NCBI GenBank assembly: GCA_937951485.1
Contig: CALEDJ010000058.1
Span: forward strand, 23,294-87,293
Length of the DNA: 64,000 bases
Direction: 5' to 3'
Origin: an uncultured bacterium
Lineage (GTDB): Bacteria > Hydrogenedentota > Hydrogenedentia > Hydrogenedentales > CAILVY01
A program made the translations under genes and the position numbers. Below the pieces are notes generated by a model, which was not told where the DNA came from, did no database searches, and saw only the letters and a program-made list of their open reading frames with translations. Each line of letters begins with the position of its first letter. Positions within the stretch are counted from its first letter, which is position 1. Below, piece after piece: positions 24,737 to 55,930 of the stretch.

Positions 24737-25060
24737 CAGTGTTGTCCAAAACAGATTGTCAAGGGAATGAAGGGCTATGCCCGGAACCCTTGAGAATCCT
24801 GTGGAATCAGGATGATGTGGCGGGCTTATCCTATGCGTAAACCGCTCGGTGGGTATTCCTGAGATATCATTGACCCCGTTACCAAGGTGTCCCGTGTTAT
24901 CTCCCCTCACCCCACCCCTCTCCCCGTGGGAGAGGGGGTATATGGCGAAACCTGCGGCATGTTTGTGCTCCCTCTCCCTCCGGGAGAGGGGTGGGGTGAG
25001 GGGAAAGGTTACCATAATAGAAGGCTTTTCCCGGCAATCAGAATATTTTGGACAGCACTG
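24737..25060. mobile_element. MITE-like element, copy 1 (324 bp, 9-bp target duplication)
   Basis: The ends are CAGTGTTGTCCAAAA and, inverted, CAGTGCTGTCCAAAA (14 of 15 identical). They are flanked by a perfect direct repeat TCTGACGAT at 24728-24736 and 25061-25069, the footprint of transposition. The interior has a conserved left arm and an inverted CCCTCACCCCACCCCTCTCCC-type palindrome able to fold into a long hairpin. There is no transposase gene, and open frames inside are by-products. Copies 2 and 3 lie at 46852 and 55474 in the same orientation. It occupies the whole 24719-25171 gap between two convergent genes. Confidence 0.88.
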
Positions 25061-25171
25061 TCTGACGATGTTTCCTGCCGGGTTCAGAGTCGGCAACACG
25101 ATGACAGGGGGACAAATCCCGGTCAAAGGGCATGACCGGCAATGGTTGCGGTGATTGTCGGAGACGCCGCG

Positions 25172-34898: not shown

Positions 34899-36080
34899 TC
34901 ATGGGAGTGGGTGGGATGCGTTGCTTTGCTCTTCCTGATGCCGGCGGTCGGAAAGATGCCCATCTGAGCCGTTATGATGGTCTTCAGGGGTGCTTGCTTT
35001 GTCAAGCGCTGCTTTGTCGGAGTTCGCCGACAGCCAGTCTTTGTAATAGGCGTCAATGGCGTTCTGGAGCATTGCCGCGTGGGAGGCGTCGTTGGGGTGG
35101 ATGCCGTCGGGTGATATGCCGGACGGCATGGGCGCGGCCGGGTCGCCGCCGGGATAGGGGTCATATTCCGGGGGAAAGCCGGGATAGGGCACGGATTCCG
35201 GCGGATTGCCAAAGCGGTATTGGAGTGTGCCCCAGTTCTGTACATAACCCACGCGGTTCCGGTATGCTGATTGCCGACTTAGTGCTTGCGTGAGCGCCAG
35301 TTTGGCTGCGCCCAGTTCGGTAATCCATGTGTTGAGTTCGAGCGTGCTCGCACCCTGGAAGTCCATCCCCCAGAATGCGGTCGCCGCCGCGTAATCCAGA
35401 TAATCATAATCGGCGAGGACCACCCTGATTTCGGGGCGCACCGCGAGGCAGGCGGTGATAATGGTTTCGATGTTATTCACAATGGGCTGCCAGTAGTCGG
35501 CGAGTCGTTGTTCAGAGGTGCGGCCGCGGAGGTTTGCCAAGGGTTCCGTGCGCACCACGTTGAGAAAATCGTTGCCGCCGATGATGAGATGGACCGCATC
35601 AATGGTGGGATAGGCCGTCAATTCGCCGACAATAGTGGCCAGGTGCTCCGGTTTGGCCCAGTCGGATGCTTTCCGGCCGCCCCAGGCGGTCAACGCGCCC
35701 TGGGTGTCGTTGTGTCCCAATCCGTTGGCCGCCAGCACCGCATCGAAAACGTCATTGGAGGGGAAACCGTCACGGTTTTCCGCGGTAATGGACATGGCCC
35801 AACTGTCGCCCACGATGAGGATGCGCTTGACCTTTTCTGCGGTTCCATCGCTCTTGCTTTCGTCTTTTGCGTCGGTCTTGTTTTTCAGCGCCGGTGTTAC
35901 GGTGTCGGCAACGCCCTCCTGATTGCTGGAAAGCGGATCAGTGGTGGCGGCGGGGGCTTGCCTCGGCTCCCGTGCGGGCCTTCCCGCGTCCGCGAATAAT
36001 ATCCCACCAGCCAGTGCAATGAACAGAACAACGGACAATGCCCGGCGTCCGTTCGCTCTTCCAGGGAAGGTGCCTGTCAT
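34899..36080 (-). CDS. Secreted SGNH/GDSL-family hydrolase
   Basis: 393 aa from ATG 36080 (TTGGAGTTCATCAA upstream). Signal-anchor/signal peptide: GRRALSVVLFIALAGGILFADA. After a low-complexity linker (residues about 35-85, rich in Ala, Thr, Lys, Asp), block I reads ILIVGDSWA with the nucleophile serine, block III GGNDF and block V DGIHPND with the Asp/His pair. This is the SGNH esterase/lipase fold, often deacetylating glycans. The C terminus is unusually rich in His, Asp and Ser (STPEDHHNGSDGHLSDRRH). The gene lies behind the (GE)n anchored protein, separated by a terminator hairpin. Confidence 0.88.
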   Translation of the reverse strand: MTGTFPGRANGRRALSVVLFIALAGGILFADAGRPAREPRQAPAATTDPLSSNQEGVADTVTPALKNKTDAKDESKSDGTAEKVKRILIVGDSWAMSITAENRDGFPSNDVFDAVLAANGLGHNDTQGALTAWGGRKASDWAKPEHLATIVGELTAYPTIDAVHLIIGGNDFLNVVRTEPLANLRGRTSEQRLADYWQPIVNNIETIITACLAVRPEIRVVLADYDYLDYAAATAFWGMDFQGASTLELNTWITELGAAKLALTQALSRQSAYRNRVGYVQNWGTLQYRFGNPPESVPYPGFPPEYDPYPGGDPAAPMPSGISPDGIHPNDASHAAMLQNAIDAYYKDWLSANSDKAALDKASTPEDHHNGSDGHLSDRRHQEEQSNASHPLP

Positions 36081-36209: not shown

Positions 36210-37643
36210 TTATTTCCTGCGCCGGTAGGCCAGTGCGCCGGCCCCGGCAATCACGCCGACCAGCAGTCCAAGGCCGATGGCCCCTGCGGCGGGCATCTTC
36301 TCACCACTGCCGCTCTGGAAAGGATTCAGCACCGCTTCAACGTATTGGGCTCGTGTGCGACCCGCGTTTATCGTGTTGTCGTATTCAACCAGATTTGTAA
36401 ACGTGTCGCCATCGGGGTCGCCGGCGGCCGATAAAGGTTCACCTACTGTCGTCAGGGTGGTGTAGGCGCCTGTCAGACCGGCCCCCGCCAGGGCGGCGCG
36501 CAACGTGCTGCTGATGGTCGCAAAGCCTGCAAGCACATGTTCATAGGCTGCCATCCCGAATGGAACATATAATGGCTCGGCGCGGACAATTGCCAGATTG
36601 GCCTCAAAGGTGCACACCGCATCATGCGACAGCGGGTGGTTGCGGTTGCAGATGATCTCTGCAAGCACCGCCAGTTCCCAACTGTCCGGAATACCGGAAC
36701 CGTCCACATCGTGGGTATCCCAATTCCACCCGAACAGCCCATAGAAGAACGCGCCTTCGGCATCAAAATTGGGGCAAGGCTGCAACAAATCACCACTGCA
36801 GGGTTCGCCTTCCCCTTCGCCTTCCCCTTCGCCCTCCCCTTCGCCCTCCCCTTCTCCTTCGCCTTCCCCTTCGCCTCCGCCCTGGTTCACATCGGGGACA
36901 CCATCGCCGGTAATCACCACTGCGTAAATGACATCCCAAGGCCCGCGCACGCTCCACATTGGATAGTCATCTCCGGCATCTGCCGCAATAAGCGCCAAGG
37001 TTGCAGCAGACAATGGGTTGCCATAGGGTCCGGGATAATATGTCCACGCACCGCCATTGACACGATACTCAACAGCGACCGAGCCATCCCCGCCCTTTGT
37101 CGAACGCGTCTCGAACAAATCACCAGGGCTGAGTGCAATCGGAACGTTGCCACCAATAACACCGTTATTGTCGCTTGCCAGCACCCACGTACCCCCGCCG
37201 ATATCCTCACGGTATTCGATCCCCGCAATCGCCAGTTGTCCTCCGCCTGAACCCGGCGTGGCATCCATGTCAATCCCGAGATAAAAGCGCTTGCGTTGGA
37301 GCGTGGGTGGGTCTCCGCCAAGGTAGTTGCCATCTGTCGGGACGATACAGCCGCCCTGCACCACATATCCATTTGGTTGCTGTGTGGCATCCGGAATGGC
37401 CATGTGTGTCACGCCACCGTCCAGGGTGAAGACGCCCTTGACGCGACCCGCATTCTGGATTTCGGTGCGCCAGGTTCCATCCCCATTCGGAACCCAGTTG
37501 AAATAGTCCGGCGGCGTCGGAACATTAACAACGCCTACCATGATCCCTGTTTCTCCGGGGAGGCCGGAGTAAACAGCCGTTCCGCCCCACGATGCGCCGG
37601 CGATGACAAGCATGCCTGCCAGAATCGTCAGTGTCTGCCTCAT
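36210..37643 (-). CDS. Secreted protein with (GE)n linker and C-terminal TM-RRRK sorting tail
   Basis: 477 aa from ATG 37643 (GAAGGAGACGGTATT upstream). Signal peptide MRQTLTILAGMLVIAGASWGG. Residues about 25-270 are a beta-rich domain of unknown family (VYSGLPGETGIMVG, KRFYLGIDMDATPG, YRVNGGAWTYYPGPYG). A GEGEGE linker of about 24 residues follows, encoded by a 6-bp tandem repeat. A calcium-loop-like DTHDVDGSGIPDSWEL segment and GDPDGDTFTNLVEY, both EF-hand/thrombospondin-3-like, come next. The tail MPAAGAIGLGLLVGVIAGAGALAYRRRK is a small-residue motif, a helix and basic residues, the layout of PEP-CTERM-like sorting signals. No sortase partner is in the window. Confidence 0.82.
   Translation of the reverse strand: MRQTLTILAGMLVIAGASWGGTAVYSGLPGETGIMVGVVNVPTPPDYFNWVPNGDGTWRTEIQNAGRVKGVFTLDGGVTHMAIPDATQQPNGYVVQGGCIVPTDGNYLGGDPPTLQRKRFYLGIDMDATPGSGGGQLAIAGIEYREDIGGGTWVLASDNNGVIGGNVPIALSPGDLFETRSTKGGDGSVAVEYRVNGGAWTYYPGPYGNPLSAATLALIAADAGDDYPMWSVRGPWDVIYAVVITGDGVPDVNQGGGEGEGEGEGEGEGEGEGEGEGEGEPCSGDLLQPCPNFDAEGAFFYGLFGWNWDTHDVDGSGIPDSWELAVLAEIICNRNHPLSHDAVCTFEANLAIVRAEPLYVPFGMAAYEHVLAGFATISSTLRAALAGAGLTGAYTTLTTVGEPLSAAGDPDGDTFTNLVEYDNTINAGRTRAQYVEAVLNPFQSGSGEKMPAAGAIGLGLLVGVIAGAGALAYRRRK
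36804..36880. repeat. Coding tandem repeat (6/12 bp) for the GE linker
   Basis: On the plus strand TTCGCC/CTCCCC hexamers alternate over about 75 bp. Read on the minus strand they encode alternating Gly-Glu. The interrupted pattern (CCTTCCCCTTCG versus CCCTCCCCTTCG) shows recent unit shuffling, so the length is probably variable between strains. Confidence 0.85.
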
Positions 37644-37970
37644 AATACCGTCTCCTTCGTTGGTGTTAAACGCCGGACAACAGGTTCTTGCCCCACTGTC
37701 CAATCAAACAACCTGCATTTCAGAATCATGATCTTGCGAAACCCAAATCGCAAGGCATAACCCCTCAGCACAAATACCCTTTGCACCCAGAAACCGCAAC
37801 CCATTGGGACTGCAGCTTCCCGATTGCGCCGACGTGACATCTGTTTCAATTGCACATATCTCTTCTTTATCACAAGCAATGATAATGCCAATCGTCGTGC
37901 CGCAACTATCATTTTTTCCAGCAAAGACTTAGCATAGGCAAGGTGCGGTGGCGGCGTGTCGCAGCATCAC

Positions 37971-38029
37971 AAGAGTGACTCAGAGGTGTCTCAAGAGTGT
38001 TGCAATCGCGACGGACTATGAAGTATAAT
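37971..38029 (+). promoter_or_regulatory. Sigma-70 promoter and repeated GAGWCA motif ahead of pseudopilin 1
   Basis: TTGCAA (38000-38005), 18 bases, then a perfect TATAAT (38024-38029), about 90 bp ahead of the pilin 1 ATG. Just upstream and touching the -35, the minus strand reads GAGACAC-N4-GAGTCAC, two half-sites one helical turn apart. The same GAGACAC-N4-GAGACA arrangement occurs ahead of pilin 2 (43040). The rest of the 474-bp gap 37644-38117 holds no gene. Confidence 0.6.
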
Positions 38030-38117: not shown

Positions 38118-39167
<1,050 letters not shown>

Positions 39168-39232: not shown

Positions 39233-41269
39233 ATGGAAAAAATGCGCTTGGCGGAGGAAGATCAGGGGTGGCGTCGTCTGCTTGTCTATCTGCCGGTATC
39301 TGTTGTTCTCGTAGTGGGGCTGCTGTTCTCCGCGCTTCTCTATATCGATCTGCATCAAAGGCATGTCCAGCGCACACAATTGGGCTTCGAAGGCGACGTC
39401 AGCGCCTATATTCTGGCATTCGAACTCAAAGTGCAGGCCACCTTGCGGGAACTTGTCCCGATTGCCTTTCAAATCAGTGATTCACCGCCGCAATCTGCGG
39501 AACGATTCGCCGCAATGATGCAACCGTATTTCGCGCGCAATGTCGGCATTCAAGCCCTGCTGTGGGCGCCCGCCACGAAGAATCCCATTGGGGAATCGCA
39601 GACACGGCCGTTGTCATCGGCAGAGGACCCTCCCGGAGGCGGAACCAGACCACCAGGGGATGGCGCCGCGATGACGGCGGCCAGGGAAGAATGGCGTTTT
39701 CCCATCCAATACATCACGCCCGAAGGGCTGGGAGGGATGGTTGCCGGTTTCGATCTGGCGTCTGATCCCGATATCCAACGGGCGATATGGAACGCTGCGC
39801 GTCGCCGGGAAATGTTTCCTATCTCTGGCGCGGCTGCGTTGCGGCATGCGGCAGGAACCGGCAACGTTATGGGTATTATGCCGGTTTATGACGACTTGAC
39901 ATCGGATGCATTCTCCACCGAAGCGGTCGGCAATTTCCGCGGTGTCGTGGCAGGTATTTTTGATGTGGGGAAAATCCTGGACGCGGCGGTCAGACGAGTC
40001 AAACCCAGCGGGGTCAACATCCATATCTTCGATACATACGCGCCCTACGGTTTTCAGTTGCTTGCCGTTCGCCGCGACCCCACCAGCACCCTGCCGGCGG
40101 TTGATGTGCGCGAAGACGATATCATTGCATCCGGATACATCCATTTTCGGCACCTGATAGAATTTGGCACCCGACGCTGGACCGTCTTCTGCACGCCTAC
40201 AGGCGAGTATCTGGCGGCAACTCAGTCCTGGTGGCCGTGGGTGGGGGTGGCGGTTGTGCTCTATTTCACCGGCCTGCTCGCTCTGTATCTGATAAAGAAC
40301 ATTGGACGAACACGCGAAATCGAAGCCCTGGTGCGACGCCGCACTGCTGAATTGCGTTCGGCCAATGACCGGTTGCGCTGGGAAATCACTGAGCGCAAAC
40401 GCTTCGAACAGGAACGCGACGATCTCCTGCGTCTGCTCGAGGATTCCAACGCGTCGCTTGAACGGCTCAATCACCGGTTGGTCCGCAGCAATGAGGACTT
40501 GCAGGATTTTGCTTTTGTGGTGTCGCATGACTTGAAAGAGCCGCTGCGAAAAATCCGTGTGTTTGCAGAACGCCTCAAGAGCCGGAGCGAAGAAATGCCG
40601 GATGACCGCCGCGCGGAGTATCTGGAACTTATTCTGGATTCCACGAAACGCATGCAGAGCTTGATTGCCGCCATCCTCGATATCTCGCGGGTCGTAACGC
40701 ATGGCCAACCCTTCCGCATGGCCGATTTGGGCGCGGTGGCGCAGGAAGTGCTCGCCGATCTTGCCGTCCGCCTGGAAGAAACCGGTGGCCAGGTGATGGT
40801 TGCAGACCTTCCGGCCATCGAATGCGATCCCACGCAAATACGGCAGGTGCTGCAGAATCTGATAGATAATGCGCTCAAGTTCCACCGCCCGGGGGTGGCG
40901 CCCCAAATCACCGTAACCGGAGCGATCCTGAGTCCCGAAGAAGCCGCCACGATGGACGCCCTGTCAGACATGTGCCGAATAGAAGTGAGAGACAATGGTA
41001 TCGGATTCGATGAGAGCGCCTCCCAGAAGATATTTTCACTGTTCCAACGTCTTTACCCACAAGAGCCCATCGAAGGCAGCGGCATCGGCCTGGCTGTTTG
41101 CCGGAAAATCGTAGAACGGCACGGAGGAACCATCACGGTGTCCAGCACCCCCGGACAGGGCAGCATTTTCACCATACTGCTGCCCCTGCGACATGTCGCC
41201 GCGCAGCACTCCGATCTTCCGCTGGAACCCGCTCCGATGGCGGAGGCCGCTGGAAGCGAGGTGCACTGA
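39233..41269 (+). CDS. CHASE-type membrane sensor histidine kinase
   Basis: 678 aa from ATG 39233 (CGAAGGATGCC upstream). TM1 is LLVYLPVSVVLVVGLLFSALLYI. An extracytoplasmic domain of about 290 residues resembles CHASE (VGIQALLWAPA, PIQYITPEGLGGMVAGFDLASDP, FRGVVAGIFDVGKIL). TM2 is GVAVVLYFTGLLALYLI, followed by a coiled coil (ALVRRRTAELRSANDRLRWEITERKRFEQE). HisKA has the His in FVVSHDLKEPLRKIRVFAERL, and HATPase has QNLIDNALKFHRPG, RDNGIGFDE and EGSGIGLAVCRKIVERHGG. Stop and next start overlap by one base (TGATG). It signals to the adjacent NtrC-like regulator. Confidence 0.94.
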   Translation: MEKMRLAEEDQGWRRLLVYLPVSVVLVVGLLFSALLYIDLHQRHVQRTQLGFEGDVSAYILAFELKVQATLRELVPIAFQISDSPPQSAERFAAMMQPYFARNVGIQALLWAPATKNPIGESQTRPLSSAEDPPGGGTRPPGDGAAMTAAREEWRFPIQYITPEGLGGMVAGFDLASDPDIQRAIWNAARRREMFPISGAAALRHAAGTGNVMGIMPVYDDLTSDAFSTEAVGNFRGVVAGIFDVGKILDAAVRRVKPSGVNIHIFDTYAPYGFQLLAVRRDPTSTLPAVDVREDDIIASGYIHFRHLIEFGTRRWTVFCTPTGEYLAATQSWWPWVGVAVVLYFTGLLALYLIKNIGRTREIEALVRRRTAELRSANDRLRWEITERKRFEQERDDLLRLLEDSNASLERLNHRLVRSNEDLQDFAFVVSHDLKEPLRKIRVFAERLKSRSEEMPDDRRAEYLELILDSTKRMQSLIAAILDISRVVTHGQPFRMADLGAVAQEVLADLAVRLEETGGQVMVADLPAIECDPTQIRQVLQNLIDNALKFHRPGVAPQITVTGAILSPEEAATMDALSDMCRIEVRDNGIGFDESASQKIFSLFQRLYPQEPIEGSGIGLAVCRKIVERHGGTITVSSTPGQGSIFTILLPLRHVAAQHSDLPLEPAPMAEAAGSEVH

Positions 41270-42981
41270 TGGAAACAAAGCACATCCATGTCCTGCTGGT
41301 GGACGATCAGCGAGCCGATTATGTCATTACCAGGGATTTGCTTGAAGAAAGCCCGCTGCGTGGCTGCACGCTCGATTGGAGCCCCGACTATGACAAGAGC
41401 CTCGAGGCATGCCTTTCGGGAAAATATGACGTGGTCCTGCTCGATTACATGTTGAACGGCCATACCGGCCTGGAGTTTTTGAGCAAAGCGCGCGCCGCAG
41501 GCGTCAAGACGCCGTTCATCATGCTCACCGCCTACGGTGAACGCGATCTGGACATCAACGCCATGAAGGCAGGCGTGGCGGAGTTTCTGATCAAAGCCGA
41601 ACTCAGCGCACCCCTTCTGGAAAGAACCATTCGCTACGCCATCAAGCATGATCAGATGCGCCGGCAGATAGAGCGCAGCCGTGATGACATGCTGTCCATT
41701 CTCGACGGACTTCGGATTGGCACAGCCATGTCGGACGAGGCAGGGAGAATCACCTTTGTAAGCCGCACTTTCGAACACCTGATCGGTCGCAGCCACACAC
41801 GCCTGGTGGGGCGCCCGTGGCAGGAGTTGTTTCCGGTAACCAAGGCGGAAACCGCTCCCATCCGGGGAATGATGGACCGTGCCCCCAGTCAACGCGCCAA
41901 AATCCAACTGGAGTGGGACCTTCCCACGGGGCAACACTATTGTGTCGAGGTGGAAATTCAAGACGATCCCCGCAGCGAAGATCGAAAAATCTTTGTAGTG
42001 TATGACATCTCAGATGTACACGGCCTGCGCCGTATGCTCGACGAAAAAGCGCGTTTTCGCGACATCATCGGGCGAAGTGAGGCGATGCGCCTGGTCTATC
42101 GGCAAATCGAAGAACTTGCCCGCTTTGACTCCACCGTGCTCATCGAGGGGGAGACCGGTACCGGCAAGGAACTGGTGGCGCGGGCCATTCATTTCTCCAG
42201 CCACCGAAAAGACAACCCGTTCATCGCCGTAAACTGCGCCGGCCTGACGGATTCCCTCCTTGCCAGCCAACTGTTCGGACATCGCCGGGGGGCCTTCACC
42301 GGCGCGGTAGAGGATCACAAAGGCTTTTTTGAAGCCGCCCAGGGGGGAACAGTTTTTCTGGATGAAATTGCCGACATCCCCATGAATGTCCAAAAATCCC
42401 TTTTGAGAGTGCTGCAGGAAAAAGAAGTCGTGCGCGTGGGAGAAGCCATTCCACGCAAGATAGACGTGCGGGTGCTCGTGGCTACCAATCAGGACCTCGC
42501 GATACTTGTAAACGAGTCTCGGTTGCGTCCGGACCTTCTCTACCGCATTCGGGTGGCGCGCATCGCCCTGCCGCCTTTGCGTTCCCGTCGCGAAGACATC
42601 CCCCTGCTCGTTGACTGGTTCCTCCGTCAATTCCGCGCCAGAACGGACAAGGTGGTCGAAGCCGTGGACAGCGCCGCCATGCGCACCCTGATGGAATACG
42701 ATTGGCCCGGCAACGTCAGGGAACTTCAAAACGCAATCGAGGCGGCAGCCATCGCCTGTCGCGGTCGGGTTATCGAGCATGCCGATATGCCCCCCGAAAT
42801 CCTTCGTTCCGAATCGCCCGTGGAAATGACCGATTATTGGGAGCGTGAGCGCGCCAATCTCCAGCAGGCGCTGGCCTACACCGGCGGCAATCGCGCCAAG
42901 GCCGCCCGGATGCTCGGCATCAGCCGCGCCACCCTCTACCGCAGACTCGCCGCATTGGAAGCACAGGACAACACCTCGTGA
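41269..42981 (+). CDS. NtrC-like response regulator, sigma-54 activator (receiver-PAS-AAA+-Fis HTH)
   Basis: 570 aa. Receiver (residues 6-125): HVLLVDDQRADYV, phospho-acceptor Asp in VVLLDYML, and K in FLIKAEL. PAS-like region at about 140-250 (MLSILDGLRIGTAMSDEAG). Sigma-54 AAA+ at about 258-490: Walker A EGETGTGKE, the sigma-54 contact loop GAFTGA, Walker B GGTVFLDEIAD and R-finger RPDLLYRI. Fis-type HTH near the end: GNRAKAARMLGISRATLYRRLA. It remodels RNA polymerase-sigma-54 closed complexes. It is translationally coupled to the kinase and precedes pilin 2, whose promoter is of the sigma-54 type. Confidence 0.97.
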   Translation: METKHIHVLLVDDQRADYVITRDLLEESPLRGCTLDWSPDYDKSLEACLSGKYDVVLLDYMLNGHTGLEFLSKARAAGVKTPFIMLTAYGERDLDINAMKAGVAEFLIKAELSAPLLERTIRYAIKHDQMRRQIERSRDDMLSILDGLRIGTAMSDEAGRITFVSRTFEHLIGRSHTRLVGRPWQELFPVTKAETAPIRGMMDRAPSQRAKIQLEWDLPTGQHYCVEVEIQDDPRSEDRKIFVVYDISDVHGLRRMLDEKARFRDIIGRSEAMRLVYRQIEELARFDSTVLIEGETGTGKELVARAIHFSSHRKDNPFIAVNCAGLTDSLLASQLFGHRRGAFTGAVEDHKGFFEAAQGGTVFLDEIADIPMNVQKSLLRVLQEKEVVRVGEAIPRKIDVRVLVATNQDLAILVNESRLRPDLLYRIRVARIALPPLRSRREDIPLLVDWFLRQFRARTDKVVEAVDSAAMRTLMEYDWPGNVRELQNAIEAAAIACRGRVIEHADMPPEILRSESPVEMTDYWERERANLQQALAYTGGNRAKAARMLGISRATLYRRLAALEAQDNTS

Positions 42982-43036: not shown

Positions 43037-43059
43037 GGAGAGACACTTTTGAGACAACC
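43037..43059 (+). promoter_or_regulatory. Candidate activator-binding motif upstream of pilin 2
   Basis: GAGACACTTTTGAGACA contains two GAGACA half-sites 11 bases apart. The core ACACTYTTGAGACA also occurs, inverted, at 37986-38001 ahead of pilin 1. It lies about 117 bp upstream of the sigma-54 promoter, a normal distance for an enhancer site. Confidence 0.5.
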
Positions 43060-43153
43060 ACAACACACTCTCCGGATTAACGCATTGCATCACAGAGGAC
43101 AAACTGGAAAAATAACTCCTTGATACATAATGACTTAGCAAAATATCTCATGT

Positions 43154-43169
43154 TGGCATCTCAATTGCA
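43154..43169 (+). promoter_or_regulatory. Sigma-54 (-24/-12) promoter of pseudopilin 2
   Basis: TGGCATCTCAATTGCA matches TGGCACG-N4-TTGCA with the invariant GG and GC separated by exactly 10 bases. The predicted start is near 43180, 41 bases before the pilin 2 ATG. An NtrC-type activator is encoded immediately upstream. Confidence 0.85.
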
Positions 43170-43220
43170 TTGCTTGGATGCGACGGGGTGAAAAATTTAA
43201 TAACTCAAGGAGTAGACACA

Positions 43221-44216
43221 ATGAAAAGTCGGAAATGCGGATTCACATTGATTGAACTGTTGGTTGTCATTGCCATCATCGGCATCCTGGCGGCAATACT
43301 TCTTCCGGCACTTGCGCGGGCGCGCGAAGCGGCGCGCCGATCCTCCTGCCAGAACAATCTCAAGCAATGGGGGTTGGTTTTCAAGATGTATGCCAATGAA
43401 TCTCCAGGGGGCGCATTTCCGCCGAGTCAATATTGGCATCTGAATGGCACCCCGACCCTTCTGGGGGTGCGCGGTTTGTCGCTGTATCCTGAATATTGGA
43501 CCGATCCGAATATCGCACTGTGTCCATCCGATCCCCGGATAACGGACTTTATTGATTTGGCGGGCAAAAGTTTGTCGGAGTGGGTCAGCGATGCAGTCGC
43601 CTTGGGCGCGTCTCAGCGGTGTCTGGACTGCATTTTGTCGCTTCCGGTCTCGTATGCCTACACCGCGTATGCGGTCAACAGCAGTTCGTGGCTGAAGAAT
43701 CTTATCTTTTCCCGTTTCAAAGTCGCCATGCAGAATCAGGTTGCAGGCAACTACGAGACGGTCGCCGCCGCCCAACTGCAGGCGGAAGGATGTCCCCGAA
43801 GGGCGTTCACCGCCTATGGCGATCTGGGCCATAAAGACATTCCGGAATCCCAGCAAGACGCCTCCGGGCAACCGAACGACGACGGGCGGCCCATGACCGG
43901 TTCGATTATGCGGCTGCGCGAGGGAATCGAACGCTTTTTCATTACTGATATCAACAATCCTGCCGGGGCTACCGTCGCCCAGAGCACATTGCCTATCATG
44001 TTGGACGCATGGGCGGACCGGGGCATGTTTTCAGATTTCGGCGACAATGCAGTGACTCGTTTTAACCATATTCCCGGCGGCTGCAATGTGCTGTACATGG
44101 ACGGACACGTAGAGTTCCTGCGTCTGCATTCACAATTCCCCGTAGCCAACTCGCCGCAAGGCACGTATGGGGCGGACCTCTCCACAGTCATGTCCGCGAC
44201 GGCCGGGACCAGTTGA
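43221..44216 (+). CDS. Pseudopilin-like protein 2
   Basis: 331 aa from ATG 43221 (CAAGGAGTAGACACA upstream). Short leader MKSRKCG then [43 protein letters not shown], a classic prepilin signature. The middle is closely related to pilin 1 ([29 protein letters not shown]). The C-terminal motif [20 protein letters not shown] carries H-X9-DG. Unlike pilin 1 it has a sigma-54 promoter and strong ribosome site, so it may be the inducible major subunit. A terminator hairpin separates it from pilin 3. Confidence 0.94.
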
Positions 44217-44355: not shown

Positions 44356-45423
44356 ATGAGCAAAGGTCAGGGATTCACGCTGATTGAGCTTCTAGTTGTC
44401 GTTGCGATTATCGGAATTCTTGCGGCAATATTGCTGCCCGCCCTGTCGCGGGCGCGCGAAGCCGCGCGGCGGTCTTCATGTCAGAACAACCTGAAACAAT
44501 GGGGGCTTATTTTCAAAATGTATTCCGGGGAAAATCGGGACCTGTTCCCTGGAGGCGCTCAGGCCGGAAATACGGTGCTCGAAATGGGGCTGAACGGCGC
44601 AAGTCTCTACCCCGAATACTGGACAGACCCATCCATTGCCATTTGCCCATCGGATTCCCATGGCGACCCCGTGGCCACCAATCTGGAGGGCACGACTACC
44701 GTTGAGGCTTATACGAAGGCTCTGCAAACGGCCGCAAGCCGCCGTGACGGCAGCCTCTTTGGCGAGGTCTGTTTCATGGGGCTGAGTTCCGTGCCGATTT
44801 CCTACTTCTATGTACCGTATGCCACCCGGTCGGCATGCCAATTGACCGACGTCATCGCCTCGAAACTGAACTGGGCGATTGCAATAGTAACGAATCCGTC
44901 AGCGTTGCCGCCGGGTTTTCCGCCCCTGGGGCAATTCACGGAAAGCCAGTTGGAGCCTTACGGCTGTGAGGCGGGTTTCCAGTATGCCCCGGGGCTGTTT
45001 CAGGGAGACATGCCCATCCTGCCCGCCAGCGCGGGTTCTTCCGGCGTGGACGACAACGGCGTGCCCATGCCCTCGCGATACTATTTTTTGCGTGAGGGCA
45101 TCGAGCGGTTCCTGATCACGGATATCAATGACCCCGCCGCAAGCGCCCGGGCGCAGAGCGAAATCCCGGTGATGCTGGACGTATGGGCGAATGCGGGGGT
45201 GCTGGGTGCTGGGATTGCGCTGTTCAACCACGCGCCCGGCGGGAGCAATGTGCTGTACATGGACGGGCATGTGACGTTTGTTCGCTACAACACCGTGTTC
45301 CCGGTGGCCAATCAGCCGGTCGAGGTCAACGGACTTCCCACCTACAAGGCGACGGGGCCGATATTCGGTTCGGCCGCCGTGCTGCTGAGCGAAGCGCTGT
45401 TTCTTGCCGGCGGCGGCGGGTGA
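44356..45423 (+). CDS. Pseudopilin-like protein 3
   Basis: 355 aa from ATG 44356 (GGGAGCGGGGCC upstream; ATG 44329 is in frame without a ribosome site). Leader MSKGQG then [43 protein letters not shown]. The middle shares [18 protein letters not shown] with its paralogues but has its own insert. The C-terminal motif is [21 protein letters not shown] Gly-rich end (LFLAGGGG) follows. It is the third paralogue of the locus, probably arising by tandem duplication of pilin 2, and its stop is 4 bp from the stop of the convergent gene. Confidence 0.93.
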
Positions 45424-46851: not shown

Positions 46852-47297
46852 AAGTGTTGTCCGGAATACATTGTTAAGGAAATGAAAGGCTATGGCCGGA
46901 ACCCTTTGAGAATCCTGTGGAATCAAGATGATGTGGCGGGTTTGTCCTATGTGGAAACCACTCCTTGGGGATTCCTGAGATATCATTGACCCCTTTACCA
47001 GGGTGTCCCGTGGGGTTTTCCCTCACCCCACCCCTCTCCCGGAGGGAGAGGGTGCGACGGCATGCCTCAGGTATCGCCATACACACCCTCTCCCGGAGGG
47101 AGAGGGAGCGACGGCATGCCTCGGGTTTCGCCATAAACACCTCGGAAACGACGTTCGTCTGCGAAAACGCCGGAGCGACAATAAGCCTCAGGTATCGCCA
47201 TACACACCCTCTCCCACGGGGAGAGGGGTGGGGTGAGGGAAAAGGTTACTATGAACGAAGGCTTTTCTCGGCACTCAGAATATTTTGGACACAACTG
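46852..47297. mobile_element. MITE-like element, copy 2 (446 bp)
   Basis: The left end AAGTGTTGTCCGGAA and the right end, inverted, CAGTTGTGTCCAAAA match the copy 1 ends with a few substitutions. The left arm (GAATCCTGTGGAATCA..GATGATGTGGCGGG, TTCCTGAGATATCATTGACCC) is collinear with copies 1 and 3. The interior has several CTCTCCC/GGGAGAGG palindromes and units containing CGGCATGCCTC and GTTTCGCC/GTATCGCC. No clear target duplication is visible, so this copy is older or altered. It fills the gap 46823-47346 upstream of the hypothetical secreted protein. Confidence 0.85.
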
Positions 47298-47346
47298 ACG
47301 ATTGACCATTTTTTTCTCCACGCCTGCCGGGGACATGCGGGGGTCA

Positions 47347-48906
47347 TCATTCCTGGATGGCCGCCGCAAGCCGTGTGTACAGGTCCTTGACGGCCGGGTA
47401 CAGGTCGCGGTAAATGGCATATAGTTTTCTGTATCGGGCGTGATTGTCAGTATTCGGGGTGGCATGTGCGTCGAGTTGCACCCAGTCCCGGACGACTTCG
47501 TAGTTCTTGTAGATACCCACGCCGACTCCCGCGACCACGGCATTGCCGACCGGGGCGCCTTTGCTTGAAACCGCAAGGGCGCATTCAACATTAAGAATGT
47601 CTGCAATGATTTGCCGCCACATGGCGCTGTTGGCGCCGCCTTCGCTGAGGATGATGGGAAGGTCCATCTTGATGCCGCTGGCCTGCATCAACTCGAAATT
47701 GTGGAGCAATCCAAAACCGGCGCCTTCCATCAGGGAGCGAATGACATGGCCGCGGCCGTGGTCAAGGCTCAGACCGAATAGAACGCCGCGCGCATGGGTG
47801 TCCCAGATGGGGGTGCGTTCGCCCATGAAATACGGCAGCGTGATCAGTCCCGCGCTGCCCGGCGGCACATGTTTCGCCTCTTCATTAATCAGATCGTAGG
47901 CGTTGACGCCCGCCATCTGCTGCGCGGCCATTTCAAGGTGGCCGAAGGTGTCGCGGAAGTAGCGCACGAGCGCCCCGCACGAAACCAACGCGGCCAGCGT
48001 CGTGTAGAGTCGCCGTGAATCGGCCGTGTGAACGATGGTGATCATGTCCTTGGTGAATTTGGGTTCATCATGGACGACGCCGAGCACGCCCGCCGTGCCC
48101 ATCACCAGTTGGGTGGACCCCGACGCGACCGCGCCGCCCGCCACCCATGCCGCGTTGCAATCCACGGTGCCGGCCACCACCGGCGTTCCCGGGGCAAGCC
48201 CGGTTCGCTCCGCAGCCTCACGCGTCACTTCGCCAATCACTTCATCACATGCGTATGCCTCGGGAAACTTGTCCGGATCAAGCCCCAATTCCTCTATCAG
48301 GTCCTTGTCCCAACGGCGATTCACGATGTCGAAAGCGATGCCGATAAGCGAGGCGTTGGAAAAATCCGTCACGGGTTTTCCGGTCAGTTTCATGCATGGG
48401 TAGTCGGCCGCCGTCTGGAACTTGTAGGTGTTGCGGTACAGGTCCGGCCGGTTGTTGCGTTCCCACATCAACTTTGCAGTGGCGTAGTAGGGGTCCACGG
48501 GATTGGCGCTGAGATTGAACACCCGTTCCTCGCCGACATGTTGGCGAATCCAGTCACATTCGGCCGTTGCGCGGCGATCCATCCAGATGTGGGCGTTCTG
48601 CAGCGGCCGCAGATCCTGGTCCACCAGGATACAGGCAGGCGAAAGCGCGCTGATCGAAACGCCCTTGATATCCCGGGGGTTTGCCTTGGCGTTGCGAATG
48701 GAAACCTGAATCGTATCCGCAACTGCGTTCCAGTACCATTCGGGGTCATGTTCCGCTTTTGCCCCGGGATAATTCTCCCCCGGACCCTTCTTTGTTATCA
48801 GCGGATACTCGATGTAATGCGTACCCAGCACTTCACCATCCACCGACATCACCACGGCCTTTGTGCCTCCTGTTCCAACATCGCAACCAACAAGCAAATC
48901 AGCCAT
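47347..48906 (-). CDS. FGGY-family carbohydrate kinase (xylulokinase-like)
   Basis: 519 aa from ATG 48906 (CAGGAGAAACGAA upstream); the longer ORF runs into the mini-element. The N-terminal phosphate motif LVGCDVGTGGTKAVV, the sugar-binding IWMDRRATAE, the second domain GTPVVAGTVDCNAAWVAGGAV, PYFMGERTPIWD, and the adenosine-motif SEGGANSAMWRQIIADIL are typical of FGGY kinases. It phosphorylates a pentose, pentulose or related polyol; xylulose is the default guess, not proven. It is transcribed alone, between two mobile-element remnants. Confidence 0.93.
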   Translation of the reverse strand: MADLLVGCDVGTGGTKAVVMSVDGEVLGTHYIEYPLITKKGPGENYPGAKAEHDPEWYWNAVADTIQVSIRNAKANPRDIKGVSISALSPACILVDQDLRPLQNAHIWMDRRATAECDWIRQHVGEERVFNLSANPVDPYYATAKLMWERNNRPDLYRNTYKFQTAADYPCMKLTGKPVTDFSNASLIGIAFDIVNRRWDKDLIEELGLDPDKFPEAYACDEVIGEVTREAAERTGLAPGTPVVAGTVDCNAAWVAGGAVASGSTQLVMGTAGVLGVVHDEPKFTKDMITIVHTADSRRLYTTLAALVSCGALVRYFRDTFGHLEMAAQQMAGVNAYDLINEEAKHVPPGSAGLITLPYFMGERTPIWDTHARGVLFGLSLDHGRGHVIRSLMEGAGFGLLHNFELMQASGIKMDLPIILSEGGANSAMWRQIIADILNVECALAVSSKGAPVGNAVVAGVGVGIYKNYEVVRDWVQLDAHATPNTDNHARYRKLYAIYRDLYPAVKDLYTRLAAAIQE

Positions 48907-54909: not shown

Positions 54910-55473
54910 ACCACCCCGTCTTCCGGACCTTTCACCCGCGTTTTCAACGGGTTGCCCCGGGAAATACCTGCGCGTCTTACAAAAGCAAGATAGATGCCAG
55001 GCGCGGGGTATGCCGTGTGCGCCGTGAGACAAGGTGTTCCGTCCCTCATGCACGGGAGTGAAGATGGCAGCCGATGCTGACGACAGGCGGCCAGGCGGCA
55101 TTTCAGGGCGCCTGAGTAATCGAAAACACGGAGCGAGGCGCGGTGCAGTTGCTTTTGTGTTTCCGGCGCTCGCGCCGCCCCCCGCGAGGCCGTTTTAGTG
55201 CGGCCCTATTCTTCGGGTATGTACCGGCGCCTGACAATGATTCTGAGACAGACCCTTTGAATACACAGAGCCACAGTTCGACTCCGGTTTTTCAATTTGT
55301 TGCGCCATTCGCGCGGGAGTTTACTATTGCATTTGGGACTGTCGGTCCGATGTGCTCTCAAGAAGGAGTGGGGCGATTGCTCGGCCTGCGTTGCTGAACA
55401 ACTGGACCACACAAAGGCATCGTAGCACGTTTTTTCCCAGCAGACAATTTGGAATGCTGAATATAGTTAAGAT
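54910..55473. other. Gene-poor intergenic stretch
   Basis: 564 bp between the NarL-like gene and MITE copy 3. Several short frames are open on both strands (for example 55143-55397), but none has a ribosome site, a recognisable family or a conserved neighbour. I see no RNA gene in it. It may be decayed sequence. Confidence 0.5.
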
Positions 55474-55903
55474 CAGTGTTGTCCAAAATGGGTTATTAAG
55501 AAAATGAAAGGATATGACCAAAACCCTTGGAAAATCCGGTTGAATCAAGATGATGTGGCGGGCCTTTCCTATACGTAAACCTCTCCGTGGGAATTCCTGA
55601 GACATCATTGATCCGTGTACCAAGGTGTCCCGTTTTGTTTTCCCCTCACCCCACCCCTCTCCCTTTGGGAGAGGGCGTTTACCGCGCCACCAGCGGCATG
55701 CCGTTGCCCCCTCACTCTTTGGGAGAGGGCGTTTACCGCGCCACCAGCGGCATGCCGTTGCCCCCTCACTCTTTGGGAGAGGGCGTTTACCGCGTCACCA
55801 GCGGCATGCCGTTGCTCCCTCTCCCCCCGGGAGAGGGGTGGGGTGAGGGGGAGGTCAATATATAAGGCTTTTCTCAGCGCTCAGAATATTTTGGACAGCA
55901 CTG
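55474..55903. mobile_element. MITE-like element, copy 3 (430 bp)
   Basis: The ends CAGTGTTGTCCAAAA and, inverted, CAGTGCTGTCCAAAA are identical to those of copy 1. Flanks show an imperfect duplication (GTTAAGAT at 55466, GTTAATCT at 55904). The left arm is collinear with copies 1 and 2, and the CCCTCACCCCACCCCTCTCCC palindrome frames three tandem 54-bp units. It lies between the NarL-like gene and two tRNA genes read toward it, so it could act as a bidirectional terminator. Confidence 0.88.
55664..55825. repeat. Three tandem 54-bp units inside MITE copy 3
   Basis: Each unit starts TTTGGGAGAGGGCGTTTACC and contains CGCCACCAGCGGCATGCCG. Units 1 and 2 are identical and unit 3 has a few changes, mainly at its end. 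Because 54 is a multiple of three, all frames remain open and false repeat ORFs appear in the track. Confidence 0.92.
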
Positions 55904-55930
55904 GTTAATCTATTTATCATTAATTTAGAA

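Follow-up and report, generated by a model that had tools for sequence, protein, structure and literature searches.

A predicted sigma-54-dependent promoter and adjoining sensor kinase/activator pair for a DUF1559 prepilin in an uncultured Hydrogenedentota bacterium

It is proposed that the prepilin gene pilin 2 is transcribed from a sigma-54-dependent promoter, which would be switched by the adjoining kinase/activator pair through an upstream enhancer, and that a divergent operon is placed under the same control; judged from sequence comparison, we give this reading a probability of roughly 87%. The window, which is the whole stretch of 64,000 nucleotides analysed, contains the following features from pilin 1 to pilin 3:

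38118..39167 (+), pilin 1, a DUF1559 prepilin directly 5' of the kinase, clustering with the corresponding pilins (P1) of relatives
39233..41269 (+), sensor kinase, CHASE-HisKA-HATPase, from domain matches and the His box
41269..42981 (+), activator, REC-PAS-sigma54 AAA+ (GAFTGA)-Fis HTH, from domain matches and alignment
43153..43169 (+), sigma-54 -24/-12 box TTGGCATCTCAATTGCA of pilin 2, from pattern scans and the same position in G048, G052 and G063
43180 (+), predicted transcription start of pilin 2, placed by spacing from the GC of the box
43221..44216 (+), pilin 2, a DUF1559 / N_methyl / H-X9-DG prepilin, from family matches and an AF2 model
44356..45423 (+), pilin 3, a DUF1559 prepilin of uncertain membership in the circuit, from family matches and the tree

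The observation of a sigma-54 box before pilin 2 is confirmed. The box TTGGCATCTCAATTGCA (43153-43169, +) is of a near-ideal sigma-54 type, lies between genes in the correct orientation and ends 52 nt ahead of the pilin 2 ATG; its core consists of GG (43155-43156), N10 and GC (43167-43168) in a TGGCA and TTGC context. A sequence-only reading of this DNA had claimed a -24/-12 fit with exact GG-N10-GC spacing, and the 16-mer at 43154-43169 (+) is as it was given; a T precedes it, and the YTGGCA... fit begins at 43153. The distances claimed there were also reproduced: the ATG at 43221 is 41 nt past a +1 put 12 nt from the GC, and the stop of the activator gene ends at 42981, 173 bp upstream of the 16-mer. 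Pilin 2 has a good ribosome-binding site (AAGGAG, 43207-43212).

The activator bears the GAFTGA motif ascribed to it earlier, together with all the expected activator domains. Its GAFTGA AAA+ domain (PF00158, 4.5e-65), REC domain (PF00072, 1.6e-14) and Fis-type HTH (PF02954, 2e-13) are those of an NtrC-family enhancer-binding protein; the GAFTGA motif is invariant in four activator orthologues, and the predicted phospho-acceptor, Asp59, is present. The CHASE domain of the kinase belongs to a type commonly regarded as sensing extracytoplasmic ligands. The absence of rpoN had been named beforehand as the finding that would overturn the promoter; the genome encodes it as an intact 477-residue frame with a glutamine-rich region I and the RpoN box ARRTVTKYR. 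Elsewhere the genome also has genes for type IV pilus/type II secretion ATPases and for PilM.

In the proposed mechanism, for which we infer the phosphotransfer, the binding of the activator to its site, the direction of regulation and the assembly route, while boxes, domains, rpoN, gene order and the relatives' enhancer are read from the DNA, the CHASE-type kinase would sense an envelope or external signal and phosphorylate the REC-PAS-AAA-Fis activator. Bound to an enhancer some 100-112 bp ahead of the box, the phosphorylated activator would then remodel the sigma-54 holoenzyme, turning pilin 2 on and, in the window's own genome, also the divergent operon for an anchored protein and an SGNH hydrolase. 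The genome has genes for type IV pilus/type II secretion machinery, and the products may be assembled by it.

The cassette was found in six of 68 genomes analysed from the phylum, counting that of the window, by matches to the REC-PAS part of the activator at E <= 1e-45; where the contigs reach far enough, the order is pilin 1-kinase-activator-pilin 2. Pilin 1-kinase-activator-[box]-pilin 2 recurs at L092 of G048 and L094 of G052, while G063 has kinase-activator-[box]-pilin 2 and pilin 1-kinase-activator is visible in G062. The sigma-54 boxes between activator and pilin 2 are TTGGCACTTCCGTTGCT in G048, TTGGCACTGGCATTGCT in G052 and TCGGTACAAAGCTTGCA, which departs from consensus, in G063; this recurrence at the orthologous place in three relatives makes a chance origin of the pilin 2 box unlikely and is the decisive support for it. 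At P2 and P3 of G048 and at P2 of G052 and G063, a palindrome of the TACACA-N11-TGTGTA type precedes the box, with its centre 111-112 bp upstream; G062 has the palindrome as well, on a contig that ends before the expected place of the box. YACACA-N11-TGTGTA occurs in the 7.8-Mb G048 genome only at its two DUF1559 pilin promoters (P2 and P3) and in the 6.9-Mb G052 genome only at P2. As read from these sequences, the fixed-distance palindrome and box of the relatives have the layout of a sigma-54 promoter that depends on an enhancer, and they travel with the activator. G021 has no pilin 3' of the activator; there the box CGGGCACCGAATTTGCT stands before a divergent gene for an anchored protein. 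The protein encoded by that gene (L093:2704-4719) has a bacterial Ig-like domain and holds the same divergent position as the anchored-protein gene of the window. The G048 cassette adjoins, and is divergent from, pilM and apparent pilNOPQ genes (L092:12252-17001), which ties the cassette to type IV pilus machinery. Two further candidates were set aside: an extra palindrome in contig C354 of G062, for which no box was found, looks like chance, and an occurrence of the cassette outside the phylum was rejected, as the four Deltaproteobacteria/Nitrospirota relatives found differ in their N-termini and lack a neighbouring prepilin.

All three pilins of the window score above the cut-offs for PF07596, N_methyl, TIGR02532 and TIGR04294, and each has a prepilin N-terminus and an H-X9-DG motif. 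The AF2 model of pilin 2 is confident, with a mean pLDDT of 86.9. In a sequence search of the PDB, pilin 2 matched the N-terminal parts of pilins and of a GspG, and a fold search against the PDB gave no match at E <= 0.001; judging from the model, the C-terminal domain may represent an unsolved fold. The leader of pilin 1 (38118-38200) is 26 residues long, and Ala replaces Gly ahead of the mature Phe (RRGAFSLVE); long P1 leaders are also seen in G021 and G062.

The pilins do not all appear to share one mode of control. No sigma-54 box with a GG-N10-GC core in good context was found for pilin 1 or pilin 3, and no pilin 3 counterpart stands at the same place in the relatives. Ahead of pilin 1 lies a candidate promoter of a different type:

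38000..38029 (+), sigma-70-like promoter TTGCAA-18-TATAAT, ahead of pilin 1-kinase-activator, from a consensus match only

Pilin 1, kinase and activator probably run from this promoter; six sigma-70-like consensus matches were found in the region against 4.1 expected. Expression of the three genes from a housekeeping promoter would put the sensor in place before the signal arrives. The idea of one pilin-kinase-activator-pilin-pilin unit is supported for pilin 2 and is refined for pilin 1, which apparently runs from the sigma-70-like promoter, and for pilin 3, which lacks a box of its own.

A variant compatible with the main reading is that the pair acts as a feedback sensor in which the kinase reads membrane-bound pilin 1, by analogy with PilS, which contacts PilA for autoregulation (PMC6058289). 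In every case where the contig shows the 5' side of the kinase (window, G048, G052, G062 and G021), pilin 1 is its direct neighbour there, and the P1 proteins cluster across genomes; the kinase, however, has a CHASE domain and not the six-helix sensor of PilS, and we regard the variant as unlikely. It is similarly doubtful that constitutive pilin 1 is the sensed part, whose state in the envelope would switch on a second pilin, a secreted hydrolase and an anchored surface protein. Were this so, the structure being built would report its own assembly or its contact with a polymer substrate.

Signal control of pilin 2 by the adjoining pair also appears to reach across the locus, where a second sigma-54 box faces away from pilin 1. 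The genes and sites concerned, with the candidate enhancers of both promoters, are:

34899..36080 (-), SGNH/GDSL-like hydrolase, below the Pfam cut-off, with G048 and G052 counterparts above it
36210..37643 (-), secreted protein with an (EG)n run, a C-terminal hydrophobic anchor and RRRK, from sequence features
37875..37891 (-), second sigma-54 box TTGGCATTATCATTGCT, facing the anchored-protein/SGNH operon, from pattern scans
37975..38001 (+), candidate enhancer of the divergent operon, GTGACTCAGAGGTGTCTCAAGAGTGTT, from the shared motif
37985-38000 (-), ACACTCTTGAGACACC, inside the divergent operon's candidate enhancer, from the shared motif
43042..43068 (-), candidate enhancer of pilin 2, GTGTGTTGTGGTTGTCTCAAAAGTGTC, with three GTGTC-like repeats of 11-bp period, from the shared motif
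43043-43058 (+), ACACTTTTGAGACAAC, inside the candidate enhancer of pilin 2, from the shared motif

The earlier picture of a self-contained, signal-controlled system is supported as far as the pair and the box are concerned, by virtue of synteny, the box with its fixed-distance enhancer and rpoN; it had missed this divergent operon. An SGNH hydrolase of the same kind is encoded 3' of pilin 2 in G048 and G052. The anchored protein gave no Pfam or NCBIfam match; its C-terminus (MPAAGAIGLGLLVGVIAGAGALAYRRRK) resembles a sorting signal, and its (EG)n run is long. The motif ACACTyTTGAGACAmC is common to both boxes of the window, at -110 and -109 bp, and its only two exact matches in the 4.55-Mb genome are at these boxes; it was derived from those two places, which makes its rarity and not its presence informative. 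Its opposite strand is a run of GTGTC-like repeats with an 11-bp period, and a description of these repeats, formulated post hoc, ranks the two places as the best two of 127,948 windows. The enhancer matrix of the relatives scores the same sites weakly (among about 128,000 windows they rank 13-30 and 126-155), and the window's candidate lies about one helical turn nearer the box than the relatives' enhancer. Since the relatives' matrix finds these sites unconvincingly, the window's enhancer is a candidate only.

Sigma-54 activators can act in trans, and another enhancer-binding protein might drive a real sigma-54 promoter at pilin 2 while the adjoining pair controls something else. The genome has many response-regulator-like matches, 17 of them to the N-terminal half, and the window's candidate enhancer is unlike that of the relatives. 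We nevertheless consider this quite improbable: in the relatives the activator is accompanied by both enhancer and box, the palindrome is essentially private to the locus in G048 and G052, and the motif common to the window's two boxes occurs at the window locus only.

The pilin 2 box has to be weighed against the frequency of sigma-54-like patterns in this DNA. The pattern TGGCAN6TTGCW has four matches in the window against 0.38 expected, a number reached in none of 100 shuffles. In genome-wide pattern searches it matched 26 times, while the reversed control pattern matched 11 times; with this background the pattern alone would not prove function, and context must decide. A loose 17-mer consensus with up to three mismatches was uninformative (26 found against 38 expected). 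The window match at 38245 (38244-38260) was considered as a promoter of pilin 1 and rejected, being the coding sequence for ILASLLLPA. Codons for the conserved pilin N-terminus (ILAAILLPA) mimic TGGCA-N6-TTGC, also in L020 and in the N-termini of the L092 pilins, and sigma-54 pattern scans consequently give false matches inside prepilin genes. A further intergenic sigma-54-like box, CTGGCATCTATCTTGCT (54984-55000, -), lies 3' of a response-regulator gene and points back into the same gene; no gene is found downstream of it. Other strong boxes in these genomes precede genes that, judged by eye from their N-termini, resemble PII (glnB), an ammonium transporter, a flagellar rod gene and a sigma-54 activator, as expected of a working sigma-54 regulon. 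Within the set L014, L118, L126, L015 and L124, drawn from several genomes of the order, boxes before flagellar rod-type genes recur in the window's own genome, G021 and G048, and boxes before PII-type glnB genes in the own genome and G048. That the pilin 2 box is a chance match and the gene is transcribed from another promoter is very hard to credit, given that, for all the 11 reversed-control matches in the genome and the mimicry by pilin coding sequence (38244-38260, L020), the box is intergenic, rightly oriented and 52 nt from the ATG, recurs at the orthologous position together with a fixed-distance enhancer, and is by far the best among 47 DUF1559 upstream regions.

The genome has 48 DUF1559 matches. 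A scan of other DUF1559 pilin promoters with a weight matrix had been suggested as a check, and its outcome speaks against a general sigma-54 link to these pilins, which we reject: with an approximate matrix based on the published sigma-54 consensus, a strong box was found in just one of the 47 upstream regions checked, that of pilin 2 (score 16.7), while the next best score, 12.3, is at chance level. In a tree of 55 pilins, P1 proteins from five genomes group together; nearly all the other paralogues of the genome belong to a group of 44 rows, and the cassette pilins are not part of it. The root of this tree is unsure, the row own_L110_42 being very long. The single strong box and the tree together indicate that sigma-54 control marks the cassette and not the DUF1559 family.

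DUF1559 is described as an expanded family without regulatory assignment; Rhodopirellula baltica has 74 such genes, some of which respond to salt and cold shock (PMC2754498). The sequence-only reading had held sigma-54 control to be undescribed for DUF1559-like pilins; literature searches among open-licence papers found no description of it and nothing that contradicts the statement. Compared with the DUF1559 (PF07596)/H-X9-DG family at large, we have here one subgroup with its own two-component system, and the pilin 2 circuit, as predicted from sequence, is probably the first on/off circuit proposed for the family. DUF1559 prepilins are numerous (48 in this genome, 74 in R. baltica), and there is no consensus on what they do. 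That one subgroup comes with a sensor, an activator, an enhancer and partner genes of its own suggests machines expressed under particular conditions, not surface proteins made in bulk. The SGNH hydrolase and the anchored protein are named as likely partners, and the promoter is suited to a reporter test.

The predicted circuit works like two known systems, PilS/PilR and the PEP-CTERM-associated PrsK/PrsR, and has the full defining features of neither. With PilS/PilR-pilA of Pseudomonas, Geobacter and others it shares the two-component pair, the NtrC-type activator, the predicted sigma-54 promoter and the adjacent pilin gene as a likely target. PilR sites are described as a TGT-N11-AGA sequence with GTCT elements (PMC6058289), and GTCT-containing repeats are present in the window's candidate enhancers too. 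However, PilS has a six-helix sensor where the kinase here has CHASE, and PilR is a REC-AAA-Fis protein without the PAS domain added in the present activator. The predicted targets differ as well, being DUF1559/H-X9-DG pseudopilins and an SGNH hydrolase, in the window's own genome also an anchored protein, and one pilin is encoded directly 5' of the kinase; by its sequence features the pair is not PilR/PilS proper. PrsK/PrsR comprises a histidine kinase and a Fis-type response regulator; the surface-protein genes have a sigma-54 box some 70 nt ahead of the start codon and, set off by a spacer of about 63 nt, a separate activator motif further upstream, and the motif was found only in Proteobacteria (PMC1569441, Haft et al. 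2006). The likeness lies in the kinase and Fis regulator, the sigma-54 box, the upstream motif and the surface-protein targets, whereas the window activator scores 310.1 bits against TIGR02915, below the cut-off of 502.6, and the relatives' enhancer differs in sequence and stands at 111-112 bp instead of behind a spacer of about 63 nt. No PEP-CTERM family match was found in the predicted targets, which are mainly pilins. In commensal Neisseria, RpoN and the response-regulator activator Npa are described as controlling pilE (PMC6528607); going by that description, the sigma-54/response-regulator logic would be the same, but pilE encodes a classical type IV pilin.

Elsewhere in the window, short stretches at about 24850-25130, 46965-47600 and 55590-55910 contain repeated chance translations like LTPPLSRRERVRRHASG and look like one dispersed family of intergenic repeats.
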